Assembly (NCBI GenBank): GCA_016840025.1
Contig: JAEOTF010000251.1
Location: forward strand, 1 to 35,725
Direction: 5' to 3'
From: Candidatus Hodarchaeota archaeon
Lineage (GTDB): Archaea; Asgardarchaeota; Heimdallarchaeia; Hodarchaeales; YT1-039
DNA: 35,725 nt
Position 1 is the stretch's first letter, and each line of letters begins with the position of its first letter. Shown one piece after another: positions 13,602-20,231 of the stretch. The notes beneath the pieces were generated by a model that saw only the letters and a program-made list of their open reading frames with translations, had not been told where the DNA came from and did no database searches. The translations under genes were made by a program, and so were the position numbers.

Positions 13602-14860
13602 GTGTTTATCCGAAAGGCCTTTAAATTCCGCATCTATCCGAGCAAAGCCCAGCGCATTCTTTTAAATAAAACGTTTGGGTGTTGTCGGTTCATCTACAAT
13701 TCAATGTTAGCAGAACGGCAAAAAGTCTATGAAAAATATAAAGAGGAGCGGGAACCCCTTAAGAGTTATCCGTATAAGACCGAAAAGGACTACAAAAGGG
13801 ACTTCGCGTTTTTGAAAGAAGTGGACTCAATCGCCTTACAACAAGCCCGGAAAAATCCGACTATCGCTTTCACCAATTTTTTTGGTCTCCCAAAGTGGGT
13901 TATCCGAAATTTAAAACCCAACAAGCCCGTCAGGCCTATACGACGGTGAATGTCAATCAGAACATCAAAATTGACTTTAAAACGCGCACAATCAAGCTCC
14001 CGAAGATCCACACGCCCGTGAAATACCGCGACCCCCAAAGCTTTGACGACCCTATTCGAAAAGTCACCCTGAGCCGGACGAAAACAGGCAAATATTATGT
14101 GGCTATCTTAGTCGAACGTGACCTCCCCGTGAAAACCAAGCAGGTGATCTCCGAGGATAAGATAGGGGCATATGACATATCTGCCTCCGCTGTTCTGGTG
14201 AGTGAGACCGCCAAACTGGAAAACCAGCGGTTTTACCGCCACATGGAGAAGAAATTATGCCGCCTGCATCGGCGACTCGCGCGGAAGAACCCAGGGTCAA
14301 ACAATTGGTACAAGGCGAAACTCGCTTTGGCACGCCTTTACGAAAGGATTTATCATCAGAAATTAGATTGGACCCATAAGACCACGTTACACCTTAGTCG
14401 CCTCTTTGACGCTATTATTTTAGAGGACCTCCACATTAAAGGCATGCAGCAATTCAATTCGGGCTTGTCTAAGTCGGTTACATTAGATTTTTCGTGACAT
14501 CAGTTTGTGACTCTCCTCAAATATAAGTTGGAATGGCAGGGCAAACACTTAGTCCAAATAGATCGCTTCTTTCCGTCCAGTAAGATCTGTTCGAAGTGCA
14601 GCTATATCAAGCACGATCTAGATCTGAAAGATCGGACATGGCAATGTCCTGTGTGTAACACGGTACATGAGAGAGATCCCAACGCGGCCGGGAATATTCG
14701 TACCGAAGGCAAGCGAATTTTGAGGGAAGTCCGTCACGTGAACATAGTTAACCCCTCTACCGCGGGAACCGCGGAAAGTTACGCCTCTGGAGAAAATGTC
14801 AGACTTCTTCTGAAGCCGTTTTCGAGGAATGAGGAATCTTCCTCTTTTAAGAGGAGGTAG
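13602..14860 (+). pseudogene. tnpB: IS605-family OrfB/TnpB transposase, one frameshift and one stop
   Basis: Three pieces read as one TnpB of about 420 residues. Piece 1 (13602-13949 frame) starts with FKFRIYPSKAQRILLNKTFG, the classical N-terminus. Near a seven-T run (13877-13883) the frame shifts to one reading GYPKFKTQQARQAYTTVNVNQN. An in-frame TGA at 14495-14497 then falls where the family has a Trp in the pattern D-x-S-W-x-x-F (here DFS-stop-HQF), followed by LLKYKLEWQGK. RuvC residues remain: Asp in YDISASAV, Glu in ILEDLHIKGM, Asp in ERDPNAAGNI. The zinc finger is CSKC...CPVC. No tnpA is adjacent, so the element depended on a transposase elsewhere. As written it cannot make an active RNA-guided nuclease. 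The GC content of this piece looks higher than its surroundings, as expected for a mobile import. Confidence 0.93.
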
Positions 14861-15498: not shown

Positions 15499-17175
15499 TT
15501 GACGGAGTCTGCTGATGAAATTGTAAATTTATATCTAGAAGCCTTACGAGATACCCCTACTCCTTTTGATAGTTTTGTATCTCGCGCTTCCCTGCCTGAT
15601 GAAATAGATATAGAGAATTCCCACAAAGATGTTGAAAGGGAAGTCTTTCGGGCTCTCAAACGGACAATTAGAGATAGATTAGCACGATTTGTCCCTATTA
15701 TGGGTGAAGCAGGATCTGGCAAGACTCATTTTTACTGGTATCTAAGAGAGCGTCAACGGATCGAAAAAGATTGGGAATGCGTGTATATACCATCTCCTCC
15801 TGCACCAGTCCGTATTGCACTACACATTTACAGCTGTATACAGGATGAAATCGGTCGTAGCTTACTTGCAGGAGTTGCCCAAGAATTTGCTCAAAAATTT
15901 ACAAAACGAGTTGGTTTCCTTCGACGAAAGAAATATCTAGCGGACATGGCTACTAGAACATATCCTGGGCTTGCATCTGATGTTGTTCGAGTTTTAGTTA
16001 CATACGCTACCGATAAAAAATTAAAACCACTCGCAGAACGCTGGTTATTAGCAGAAGATTTGAATGAAGAAGAATTAAAGGCTTTAGGTGTATCTCGAAT
16101 CATTGAAGAAGATGATACTGTAATTGTTACACTTAGAACACTTTTCAAATCTTATCCGAAGACGATCTTGTTGTATTTTGATGAACTCGAGATTCCTTAT
16201 AGAACTCGTGGACCAGAAGCTGAAACTCGTTTTTTTGAATATCTCAAAAGACTCTATAATGAAATTCCGCAGATAATAATAGTTTCAGCGTGTCTCACCG
16301 AAATGTGGGATCGTGTCCTTCAAACAGCAGATACTGCAATGAGAACACGGATGGAACAACCGACGCATTTACAACCCTTTTCAAAAGGGGATTTGGAGAG
16401 ATTTTATCGAGAATCGATGAAAATCTATTGGGAAACAACTCAAAACATTGACCCTCCCTCTTTTAATCCCCTTTTCCCGCTTACTAAAGATGTTTTTTCA
16501 CAGATCATTAAGCAAACACATGGAAACCCTCGTGAGTGTAAGAAATATCTTCGAAATTATCTAGAAAACTTTATTTCTTCCTATGAAGAAATAAAAACAC
16601 ATCCCAATTCTCAAATAGCTTATGAAGCGCTAAAACATGCTACAGCTATTCACTCTTATGAAAGTATTGATGAGATTATGACTATCGAACTTAACCCTTC
16701 TAGTGTTTTATCGGGCATATTAGACTCGATTCTTTTAAGGGCAAAAAGGGCTGACATAACCCTTGATATTGAGCTAGAATACTCTTTCTTCGTTAAAAAC
16801 AATCCCCAACAGATTGCTGCGCGAATCACCATAGAAGGAAAACATGTAGGCATAGAAGTGCCTTCTGTAAGGAGTTTTGATAGAAGCGGAGGAGTTGCAG
16901 CATATTTTTCCCTTCATCGCCTTATCAGTGCCAAAAAGGATGTAGGTATAATAGATACTGGTATATTGATTGTTCCTGCAGGCACAACAGGTAAGAAATT
17001 CCAATCGTTGTGTGAACAAAATAAAGAGGATATTATAGTTGTACAGCTTGACGGATCAGCTGCGGAAGAGATTATAAGGGGAGGACTCAAAAAAAAGATC
17101 GTTTTATCTATGAAAGAAATAATTGAGGTCATTTTCCCGAATTTAGGGTTTAAACATGATGAGGAGGAAGAGTGA
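15499..17175 (+). CDS. P-loop ATPase with unassigned C-terminal domain, 558 aa
   Basis: An AAA/STAND-like ATPase. Walker A GEAGSGKT is at residues 69-76 and Walker B TILLYFDELE at 222-231. A sensor-1 type strand (IIIVSACLTEMWD) is near 259-271, an arginine-rich AMRTRME follows at 280-286, and HGNPRECKKYL at 341-351 resembles the sensor-2 block of Orc/STAND proteins. Residues 385-558 form a separate alpha/beta domain (GKHVGIEVPSVRSFDR, VGIIDTGILIVPAGTTG, DIIVVQLDG). The alternating strands and an Asp-x-Gly could suit a PD-(D/E)xK-like or other effector fold, but I cannot assign it. TTG start with AGGAAG upstream. It stands alone, 55 bases after the HsdR remnant and near a TnpB element, which makes a defence role plausible but unproven. 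Confidence 0.7.
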   Translation: MTESADEIVNLYLEALRDTPTPFDSFVSRASLPDEIDIENSHKDVEREVFRALKRTIRDRLARFVPIMGEAGSGKTHFYWYLRERQRIEKDWECVYIPSPPAPVRIALHIYSCIQDEIGRSLLAGVAQEFAQKFTKRVGFLRRKKYLADMATRTYPGLASDVVRVLVTYATDKKLKPLAERWLLAEDLNEEELKALGVSRIIEEDDTVIVTLRTLFKSYPKTILLYFDELEIPYRTRGPEAETRFFEYLKRLYNEIPQIIIVSACLTEMWDRVLQTADTAMRTRMEQPTHLQPFSKGDLERFYRESMKIYWETTQNIDPPSFNPLFPLTKDVFSQIIKQTHGNPRECKKYLRNYLENFISSYEEIKTHPNSQIAYEALKHATAIHSYESIDEIMTIELNPSSVLSGILDSILLRAKRADITLDIELEYSFFVKNNPQQIAARITIEGKHVGIEVPSVRSFDRSGGVAAYFSLHRLISAKKDVGIIDTGILIVPAGTTGKKFQSLCEQNKEDIIVVQLDGSAAEEIIRGGLKKKIVLSMKEIIEVIFPNLGFKHDEEEE

Positions 17176-17455: not shown

Positions 17456-18538
17456 TTGCCGGCTGTTTGTTTTAGTGTATTTGACCTCACAAGCGGACCT
17501 CGACCTATCTTTTATCCAGGCATAGAGCGGAATATGGCTCTCAAAATTGCCATGAAAAGTCAGATGACTCTTTCCGTGATGGCTGAAAGAACAGTAGAAA
17601 CGTCAGATGCGGTATTACCCTTCCCTGAAGAGGCGAAAATTGCGTATGTTTTCCTGTTCACGATACAGGGAGATTTTGGTTCAAAAAACAAAAGTGTTGC
17701 TTCTCTTAGCTTTATTGTCGATCAAACCCAACAAATGGAGTTTTATAAGCAAGTTTCACTTCTTAGATACCAAGCGGAACAAATTGCTGAAGTAGTTCAG
17801 CAAACATATCACTATTCACCCCAAAACGAGGCTCTCCCAAAAAACCTGGAGAAAACAATTAGAGATTGGGGGAGTGATCTAGCTTCTGTGGAGATGACTG
17901 TAGAGGAAGAGGTTAGGAAAAAGCGGATTACCATTCGCAGGGCAGAACGCCGCGGTAGTCTCTCTTTTCTCCTGAACACCATTAAAAAGAATAGCGATCG
18001 CCTTGTTCGTGCAGTTATCGAAGGAAAGACAGTAATTCTAGTAGGCGATGAAGCGATCATTGATTTGATGGAATCAACATTAGAAAGTTTCGCGCCTCAT
18101 CGAGCCCTCCGTAGAATTGCCTACACCGAAGAATTTGTTCATCCATCAGAAGCCGACATCATCGGAATGAGTACTGATCTCTCAAAACATTACTCTGAAG
18201 AAATTATTGTTGATCTGAGAAAAGGCAAAATTAATCGTGGCACTAATTGTAAGTTTTCTAAGAAATTACTTGATCAGATTAAAAATCTAGATCAAGAAAA
18301 AGCAGAACGTGTAGTTAATAGTCGCGTTAATTTCTTAATCTCCAAAGCTAACGCCTTGGTGGAATTGGCGGGAGGACAAGAAGTAAATGATGCGGCTATA
18401 TCTGCTTTTCAGAAATCGGTGGACAAAGATGCTCTTGAGATTATAACAACCATTGCTTCACAAACTAATCCCATGATTGCAGATCTATTACGTGATAGAG
18501 TTCAAGCAAGATACTCAGAGTGGATGGCGGGGCTCTAA
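17456..18538 (+). CDS. Folliculin-like longin-DENN domain protein, 360 aa (putative)
   Basis: Residues 1-120 have the layout of a longin domain: a first strand plus turn CFSVFDLTSGPRPIFYPG, a helix MALKIAMKSQMTLS, strands AKIAYVFLFTI and SVASLSFIVD, then a long helix FYKQVSLLRYQAEQIAEVV. A coiled charged linker (125-180) follows. Residues 181-300 resemble the start of the DENN core as in folliculin (FLCN): DRLVRAVIEGKTVILVGD, a helix, then RRIAYTEEF, ADIIGMS and EEIIVDLRKGKI, closed by helices. In eukaryotes such proteins regulate Rag, Rab and Arf GTPases at membranes, often next to roadblock/longin partners. Assignment is by eye from order and motifs, not by search. TTG start, weak ribosome-binding site. 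A Cys-rich small gene follows 24 bases later. Confidence 0.5.
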   Translation: MPAVCFSVFDLTSGPRPIFYPGIERNMALKIAMKSQMTLSVMAERTVETSDAVLPFPEEAKIAYVFLFTIQGDFGSKNKSVASLSFIVDQTQQMEFYKQVSLLRYQAEQIAEVVQQTYHYSPQNEALPKNLEKTIRDWGSDLASVEMTVEEEVRKKRITIRRAERRGSLSFLLNTIKKNSDRLVRAVIEGKTVILVGDEAIIDLMESTLESFAPHRALRRIAYTEEFVHPSEADIIGMSTDLSKHYSEEIIVDLRKGKINRGTNCKFSKKLLDQIKNLDQEKAERVVNSRVNFLISKANALVELAGGQEVNDAAISAFQKSVDKDALEIITTIASQTNPMIADLLRDRVQARYSEWMAGL

Positions 18539-18562
18539 TATTTCATTAATGAGGAAATCCCA

Positions 18563-18721
18563 ATGCCTGTACCTAAGGAATGTCTAAATCATCAAAAGTT
18601 CAAATGTATCTTCCAAGTCATTGAATCCTGCACTAAAAATCCTCCAGCCGACTGTAAAAGTTGTTCTGAAGCCAGTTGTGAAAATTGTGATACTGCATCA
18701 GCTTCTTGTTTTTCTAAATAG
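18563..18721 (+). CDS. Cys-rich micro-protein, 52 aa
   Basis: ATG follows GAGG eight bases away and lies 24 bases after the longin-DENN gene, so the two are probably cotranscribed. The peptide has eight cysteines at residues 7, 15, 23, 31, 34, 39, 42 and 49. The central C31-KS-C34 and C39-EN-C42 pairs look like a zinc knuckle or a small metal cluster site. No signal peptide. I recognise no family. Coupling to the folliculin-like gene is the main clue to role. Confidence 0.6.
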   Translation: MPVPKECLNHQKFKCIFQVIESCTKNPPADCKSCSEASCENCDTASASCFSK

Positions 18722-18898: not shown

Positions 18899-19756
18899 AT
18901 GAAAATGCTTAATTCGTTAATAAACACTCTCATTGAATATAATTGGCCAATTCTAAATGAGACAGAAGAATTAGCCCATACTGTAGGAACTGTTATCGGC
19001 GGTTTAGGGATTTTAATGATGCTTGGCTGTGCCATTCGTTTATACACGAATTATAGGGCAACAGAAAAGAAACAGTCACTTTATCTCGCTGGAATGTGGT
19101 TTTTTCTCGGTTTAGGTGCGTTGTTCGTTGGATTGGAACAAATTCTCTTTCAAGCAATGGATAACCAAGCAGATGCGGCAGACCCCGCAACTTTTTTCGC
19201 CATTTTAGCCTTTCTTTTTGCGGTTATTGGCTTTTTCCTAGGCAACCTGTTCGCATTATCTTTCTTTGAGAAAAAAATGAAATTAGCGATAATTCCTGTA
19301 ATGCTCCTCATAGCATATTTTGTATATTGGCTTCTGACTATTCATTTTACCGCAAGCGATATTCCAGGTACAGAAGGAGTAGATGTATTTGCACCATGGC
19401 TTGATACGGGAGTAGATATGGACATGTATAGAACTGGAGCTGAAAAAGGCATTCTCGTCCTTCTGATGTTCATCCCAGTTTGGCTTATCTTTGGGGTTCT
19501 TGCTTACGCTACGATTAAAGTTAGAAAACAACCACCTCTCTTTAAAAGATCGTTTCTCCTTGCTTTTTTACAAGTAGGAGTCGGCTTTGCCTATACAATC
19601 GAGATAATAGGTACAGATTTTCTTGAACCAGCACTGGGAGATTCAGCAGTTTGGATGGTGGTCCTTGCTAGAATTAATTATGTTCTTATTCCTCTTTTCG
19701 TTTATATCGTCTATGCAATGCCTCAATGGTTCAAAAATTTGATTGGTTGGGAATAA
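18899..19756 (+). CDS. Seven-transmembrane protein, 285 aa
   Basis: Seven hydrophobic segments are visible, at about residues 27-47, 61-82, 99-125, 130-150, 184-207, 218-238 and 252-275. Between the fourth and fifth is an acidic outer loop of about 35 residues (SDIPGTEGVDVFAPWLDTGVDMDM). Short basic loops (RLYTNYRATEKKQ, KVRKQPP) would face inside. The layout recalls 7-TM sensors, but there is no rhodopsin-type retinal lysine motif or other family mark I can name. ATG start; MKMLNSL. It is followed by a hairpin terminator. Function unknown. Confidence 0.6.
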   Translation: MKMLNSLINTLIEYNWPILNETEELAHTVGTVIGGLGILMMLGCAIRLYTNYRATEKKQSLYLAGMWFFLGLGALFVGLEQILFQAMDNQADAADPATFFAILAFLFAVIGFFLGNLFALSFFEKKMKLAIIPVMLLIAYFVYWLLTIHFTASDIPGTEGVDVFAPWLDTGVDMDMYRTGAEKGILVLLMFIPVWLIFGVLAYATIKVRKQPPLFKRSFLLAFLQVGVGFAYTIEIIGTDFLEPALGDSAVWMVVLARINYVLIPLFVYIVYAMPQWFKNLIGWE

Positions 19757-20015: not shown

Positions 20016-20231
20016 CTACTTCTCAGCAGCGAGCTTAATGTCACCCTCTTTGATGGTCTTTCGACCAGAGTGACGAGCCAATTCTACAGCATAACGGGCA
20101 ATTTCCATCGCGAGTTCAGTTAGAACTTCATTAAGTCGTTCAATTGCTTCAGCAGAAACTCGTTGAGCCCCTGCTTGTCTCATTATTCTTTCAACTCGAG
20201 CATTCGCAAATCCTGCCAAAATATTCACCAT
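20016..20231 (-). CDS. Archaeal histone, 71 aa
   Basis: The complete sequence is a single histone fold of the HMfA/HMfB type: a short first helix (ANARVERIMRQAG), loop 1 AQRVSAEAIERL, the long central helix (NEVLTELAMEIARYAVELARHSG) and the RKTIKEGDIKLAAEK end, where T54 in RKTI contacts DNA. It has no tail and normal length. It should form dimers that wrap DNA. The N-terminus (MVNILAGFANARV) differs from the usual LPIAPIGRI start, while the arginine that caps helix 1 is retained. The gene has its own TATA box and is monocistronic. Confidence 0.96.
   Translation of the reverse strand: MVNILAGFANARVERIMRQAGAQRVSAEAIERLNEVLTELAMEIARYAVELARHSGRKTIKEGDIKLAAEK

Follow-up and report, generated by a model that had tools for sequence, protein, structure and literature searches.

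The window considered here is the whole stretch of DNA that was analysed, 35,725 nucleotides of contig JAEOTF010000251.1 from a Candidatus Hodarchaeota archaeon, and the gene in question is an open reading frame (ORF) at 17456-18538 for a protein of 360 residues, hereafter the window protein. An original prediction had taken it for a regulator of small GTPases of the folliculin (FLCN) and SMCR8 type, with a longin domain, a linker and a DENN domain in that order; the ORF and the motifs quoted from it are present. The explanation that fits best as a whole, with a probability of roughly 60%, is an Asgard longin-DENN regulator of GTPases that is finger-less, i.e., lacks the catalytic arginine of folliculin, and is recruited or controlled by a neighbouring protein with seven transmembrane helices (7TM). 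The parts of the gene are as follows.

17456..18538, forward strand: longin-DENN gene, ORF with a TTG start, 360 amino acids, in the Asgard longin-DENN family (finger-less clade)
17456..17887, forward strand: longin domain, residues 1-144
17888..17944, forward strand: linker, residues 145-163, of low model confidence (predicted local distance difference test, pLDDT, below 50 at residues 144-164)
17945..18469, forward strand: DENN and d-DENN part, residues 164-338
17681..17683, forward strand: codon of Ser76, which occupies the position of the Arg164 finger in FLCN (two alignment methods, 56 proteins)

The TTG start is supported because a relative with 78% identity to the window protein (P0002) shows the same N-terminus, while one source's gene call of the window's own protein (P0001) starts 26 codons later. 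A structure model built on nine sequences reached a pLDDT of 78.7 and a predicted template modelling score of 0.75. In Foldseek and VIA this model matched FLCN as well as chains from the C9orf72-SMCR8 complex, which bears out both the domain order and the structural likeness to FLCN that had been proposed. The second-best Foldseek match was 7mge_C, taken to be C9orf72 from the entry titles and residue ranges, and entries of DENND1B and DENND10 were within the six best. The window protein has a longin domain at its N-terminus followed by DENN and then d-DENN, the order of the tripartite DENN module. By this model a longin-DENN fold is nearly certain, and the family is most likely the tripartite module known from the eukaryotic folliculin, FNIP, C9orf72, SMCR8 and DENND proteins; homology of the window protein to that module is very likely.

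A large protein database holds nine relatives of the window protein, one of which is its own shorter gene call. Informative names are attached to three of these relatives (Promethearchaeota, 78% identity; Hodarchaeota, 40%; Hodarchaeales, 31%), and they support the Asgard origin that had been suggested. The Pfam matches of the window protein itself were below cut-off, to Folliculin_C (PF16692, E 0.0017, 18.4 bits against 27) and weakly to the C9orf72-like family (PF15019, E 0.0036), and the Pfam scan gave no match to the Folliculin longin model PF11704. A single-sequence search of the PDB returned a sole match at E 1.2, judged to be chance. The window protein is nevertheless kin to Asgard proteins that do score with the Pfam folliculin model, and the sequence evidence comes from these relatives: PF11704 exceeds its curated cut-off (23.3 bits) in 40 of 227 Asgard genomes and matches in none of 14 controls, with single proteins at 25.3 bits (L021) and 32.6 bits (L041). 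Folliculin_C reached E <= 0.01 in 12 of the 227 genomes, exceeded its cut-off in one and matched none of the 14 controls. Precomputed tables carry the tag PF11704.14 on 5 of 35 relatives of L021; the databases hold a hint of Asgard folliculin-like proteins, of which no report was found in the literature searched. The sequence evidence from relatives and the structural match agree for each of the domains. An accident of prediction, in a protein unrelated to DENN proteins, is very improbable in view of this independent evidence, even though the model draws on nine sequences only and the window protein stays under all Pfam cut-offs.

A profile of the longin-DENN family matched in 129 of the 227 genomes, with up to nine matches per genome, a count that takes in longin-only and partial matches (e.g., ORFs of about 490 amino acids matched over positions 3-188); at least 39 genomes hold one match covering at least 300 of the 362 positions. 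This spread over several deep clades, the separate paralogues per genome and the repeated occurrence near a 7TM gene of archaea make it quite unlikely that the family was acquired from (proto-)eukaryotes by gene transfer instead of being ancestral, although such transfer has been argued for Heimdallarchaeia (excerpt of PMC12395588). A precomputed Pfam tag, PF27109.1, is found on the relatives P0006, P0009, P0038-P0040 and P0042, with no such family in the local Pfam scans. ORFs of 740-780 amino acids (G059:C1:30946-32097, G060:C221, G055:C58 and others) match the DENN part twice, which suggests that one Asgard clade may have DENN modules in tandem. The profile of the window clade also matched TM_1646 (E 0.007) and numerous haemagglutinin chains; these matches involve C-terminal helices and were judged to be coiled-coil noise, from the best 60 of 98 matches.

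The Arg164 of FLCN is described as a catalytic finger (excerpt of PMC7464330), and Arg147 of SMCR8 is the equivalent finger in the trapped complex, in which C9orf72 is the finger-less half (passages of PMC8213707). A profile match to FLCN aligns the invariant Asgard arginine of an (A)RGG motif with residue 164, a position counted from the printed alignment. Among 56 full-length longin-DENN proteins aligned by two methods, arginine occupies this column in all 23 members of the RGG clade, in all seven of a third clade with the motif KRSP and in none of the 18 of the window clade, with 1/3, 0/4 and 0/1 in the remaining groups; the window protein has Ser76 there. The clades are those of a quick tree of 85 full-length proteins thinned to 56, made without bootstraps or eukaryotic sequences and with several long branches (P0044, L066), in which the Shimodaira-Hasegawa-like approximate likelihood ratio test gave 95 for the branch separating the window clade and 90 for that of the RGG clade. 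Since the catalytic arginine is absent, the window protein is closer to the finger-less half (FNIP, C9orf72) than to folliculin, and identity as a folliculin orthologue was ruled out. The original prediction of an FLCN/SMCR8-type regulator is thus upheld in its FLCN/C9orf72-like fold and has to be corrected as regards the missing arginine. Judged by its sequence, the protein is hardly a stand-alone GTPase-activating protein (GAP) of the FLCN type; it would fit a GAP pair as the half without a finger, or else a guanine nucleotide exchange factor (GEF). The clade with the invariant RG(G) finger motif (P0010-P0040, L041, L042, L044, L046, L047, L049, L052) is a second Asgard longin-DENN clade, several members of which are above the Pfam Folliculin cut-off, and it matches folliculin itself more closely than the window clade does.

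The window protein probably regulates a GTPase. Rag/Ras-like GTPases and roadblock-like genes, to which the original prediction had pointed, are both found in related genomes. PF04670 (Gtr1/RagA) has 12-39 matches per genome in all 14 related genomes tested, and many of these are general Ras-like GTPases because the model also matches in 2 of 14 controls. Roadblock-like genes (by eye) lie near a longin protein of 427-442 amino acids with an Arg-Gly finger motif in 8 of 9 related genomes; of these genes the G001 copies were Pfam-scanned, both coming out under cut-off (Robl_LC7 E 0.0048; Folliculin E 2.8e-4). In 7 of 9 related loci a gene for a Rab-like GTPase, whose G001 copy matches Pfam Ras at E 1.2e-40, is situated 5-6 kilobases (kb) away from the longin-DENN gene and its 7TM neighbour; the GTPase is a candidate substrate. 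This gene (L097, L098, L092-L096) adjoins a 262-amino-acid gene, longin-like by eye, in 6 loci.

DENND1 proteins act as GEFs, and the main rival explanation is that the window protein is likewise a DENN-type GEF for a Rab-like GTPase and independent of a finger. Such a factor would require no arginine, the Rab-like gene occurs in most related loci, DENND1B and DENND10 are among the six best structural matches, and the titles of the DENND1 entries name GEF domains; yet the FLCN and SMCR8 chains outscore DENND1B by Z (17.1 and 13.4 versus 10.1) and the Rab-like gene has no counterpart in the window, so that this explanation is rated unlikely. That the window protein is the non-catalytic half of a GAP pair rather than a GEF is held tentatively, at a little under even odds. 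Complete loss of GTPase regulation, leaving a longin-DENN scaffold or trafficking adaptor, would agree with the loss of the finger across the clade (0/18) and with the other roles that longin domains have (excerpt of PMC10933270), but both domains are at full length across the clade and the genomes are rich in candidate GTPases, which renders it improbable.

Two ORFs downstream of the longin-DENN gene have to be considered as partners.

18899..19756, forward strand: predicted seven-helix membrane protein of 285 amino acids, the recurrent neighbour (conservation, model pLDDT 72.3, loop charges)
18563..18721, forward strand: ORF of 52 amino acids with eight cysteines, starting 24 bases downstream of 17456-18538, judged to lie outside the system

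The 7TM gene is the conserved neighbour that the original prediction overlooked. Among window ORFs of at least 100 amino acids, only this one and the longin-DENN gene have counterparts in nine related loci, and the two are adjacent in 8 of 11 window-clade genomes (G001-G003, G045-G050, G053 and G054, which hold a protein placed in the clade by the tree or one close to it in sequence) and 3.4 kb apart in one. G051, G080 and G083 are among the further genomes with relatives of the 7TM protein. Pfam gave no family match at a meaningful score. A retinal-binding rhodopsin was rejected, as by eye the last transmembrane helix (TM7) shows no lysine of the kind that binds retinal in rhodopsins. The multi-helix membrane neighbour of a paralogue (L066:4140-4775) is alike by eye and was rejected as unrelated by BLASTP (E 0.63).

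The 52-residue protein had been coupled to the longin-DENN protein in the original prediction. The ORF exists at the spacing claimed, and it is unusual for the base composition: 1 of 64 ATG ORFs of 40-70 amino acids in the window has at least eight cysteines, and none occurs in 40 random sequences as long as the window (first-order, dinucleotide-based). The coupling itself found no support. Neither Pfam nor NCBIfam matches the ORF at E <= 10; its matches at E <= 1 in 45 of 227 Asgard genomes are at about chance level, and no credible homologue was found in the 227, the best (E 0.006) having an internal stop codon. Nor is it conserved beside homologues, as no comparable ORF was found downstream of 11 related longin-DENN genes; the cysteine-containing frames at L001 and L014 lie at least 300 bases downstream and are dissimilar by eye. 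The longin-DENN and 7TM proteins of the 78% identical relative bear the locus tags _00160 and _00155, which suggests that no annotated gene lies between them. With no homologues and no presence behind related genes, the 52-residue protein was ruled out as partner; a module of the two, for all the close spacing and the rarity of eight cysteines in 52 residues by chance, keeps next to no probability, and the ORF is probably an unrelated, lineage-specific small gene. The 7TM gene is the likelier partner, and its functional coupling to the longin-DENN protein is slightly better than an even bet once the two genomes without adjacency are counted.

The preferred explanation would then run as follows. 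The compact Asgard longin-DENN protein would work in the cytosol and regulate a Ras/Rab/Rag-like GTPase. Its longin domain would dimerise with another longin protein and cup the GTPase while supplying no catalytic arginine, a role like that of C9orf72 beside SMCR8 and of FNIP beside FLCN, and the DENN half would help to hold the longin dimer together. The 7TM protein would most likely recruit or control it at the membrane. Of all this, the analysis shows the predicted fold, the kinship with Asgard folliculin-like proteins, the absent finger and the recurring 7TM gene nearby; binding of a GTPase, dimerisation and recruitment are inferred. A wider reading, of an Asgard membrane-signalling circuit in which a 7TM protein like the G-protein-coupled receptors (GPCRs) controls longin-DENN, together with an asymmetric GAP pair of the FLCN-FNIP/SMCR8-C9orf72 type predating eukaryotes, is speculative and rather doubtful; the pair would be pre-eukaryotic in that reading because Asgard archaea already have finger-bearing and finger-less longin-DENN proteins.

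Several observations weigh against the preferred explanation. Besides staying below every family cut-off, the window protein scores similarly with unrelated families (DUF3867, E 0.0037; K-ATPase subunit C, E 0.0016). By profile, eukaryotic chains of the PDB match weakly, SMCR8 at 0.077 and FLCN at 0.09, with RsbS chains ranked above the latter; the RsbS and spectrin chains in this search were judged to be chance. Whole-chain root-mean-square deviations (rmsd) are 11-24 A to the FLCN and C9orf72-SMCR8 chains because the two halves are oriented differently. Five of the 18 window-clade loops, the window protein's not among them, have an arginine within about 4 residues of the finger column, and a shifted finger is therefore possible for those five. 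The Rab-like gene is missing from the window, as mentioned. In two genomes, G053 and G054, the contig with the longin-DENN gene has no 7TM gene; this contig is only 3.6 kb long in G054, and in G053 it shows more than 8 kb on the upstream side and 2.3 kb on the downstream side, with no 7TM match in either. Finally, the 7TM gene is convergent to the longin-DENN gene in 6 of 9 loci, and there the two therefore share no operon.

Other genes recur around related loci. Nine of these (L059, L062, L065, L068, L070, L073, L075, L077, L078) show an order that starts with a roadblock-like gene (162-164 amino acids) and continues with the finger-bearing longin (427-442), a protein of 459-467 amino acids that resembles a PHP-type phosphoesterase, and a further conserved gene. 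A membrane protein of 861-909 amino acids with long helical parts (L001:9646-12258, reverse strand, family 4), without significant Pfam match, lies near the longin-DENN/7TM pair in 8 loci, and a protein resembling it by eye precedes the finger-bearing genes in L041, L042, L044 and L046. Elsewhere in the window, 15499-17175 (forward strand) encodes an AAA-type ATPase of 558 amino acids with weak matches to the NCBIfam Sll1717 family (28 bits, cut-off 75) and Pfam BrxC/BrxD (20.8 against 22.2). Three consecutive ORFs at 13602-14860 (forward strand) seem to be fragments of one broken gene, presumably a TnpB/OrfB-type transposon gene, and a 71-amino-acid ORF at 20016-20231 (reverse strand) resembles an archaeal histone.

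No paper on Asgard DENN proteins was found in the open-access PMC literature, a search space without bioRxiv and with few subscription papers, and the wider open-access literature held none by title among the matches listed. A search for Asgard together with folliculin found none on such a protein by title or abstract. The Asgard GTPase/roadblock paper mentions folliculin once and DENN not at all (PMC10933270), and in the 2023 Asgard reconstruction (PMC10307638) the main text mentions neither DENN nor folliculin nor GATOR. Zhang et al. (2012; excerpt of PMC3521125) assigned the fusion of longin, DENN and d-DENN to the stem lineage of eukaryotes. An Asgard-wide longin-DENN family, partly with the folliculin finger, would, if true, push the origin of this fusion back, and small archaeal proteins would allow the evolution of the FLCN-FNIP, C9orf72-SMCR8 and DENND systems to be tested. 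The 7TM protein encoded nearby is a concrete candidate for archaeal membrane signalling to Ras-like GTPases.

Known systems resemble the locus in part. The 7TM protein matches GPCRs and microbial rhodopsins in Foldseek at an E of only 3.6e-3. The lokiarchaeal protein of PDB 8YQG is described as a Roadblock-Longin protein, with no DENN part in its title or solved chain. DENND1 and DENND10 match the window protein at lower Z than FLCN. FLCN (PDB 6NZD, 6ULG, 8DHB, 3V42), which together with FNIP acts as a GAP on RagC/D, is larger, with 579 residues in the 6ULG chain against 360, differs in domain orientation (whole-chain rmsd 23-24 A) and has the finger arginine that the window clade lacks; the window protein is without the catalytic arginine used by FLCN, SMCR8 and NPRL2. 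C9orf72 and FNIP come nearest in this respect, as they combine the longin-DENN build with no catalytic arginine at the finger place. They pair with the finger-bearing SMCR8 and FLCN. The match of the window protein to the C9orf72-like family PF15019 is under cut-off.
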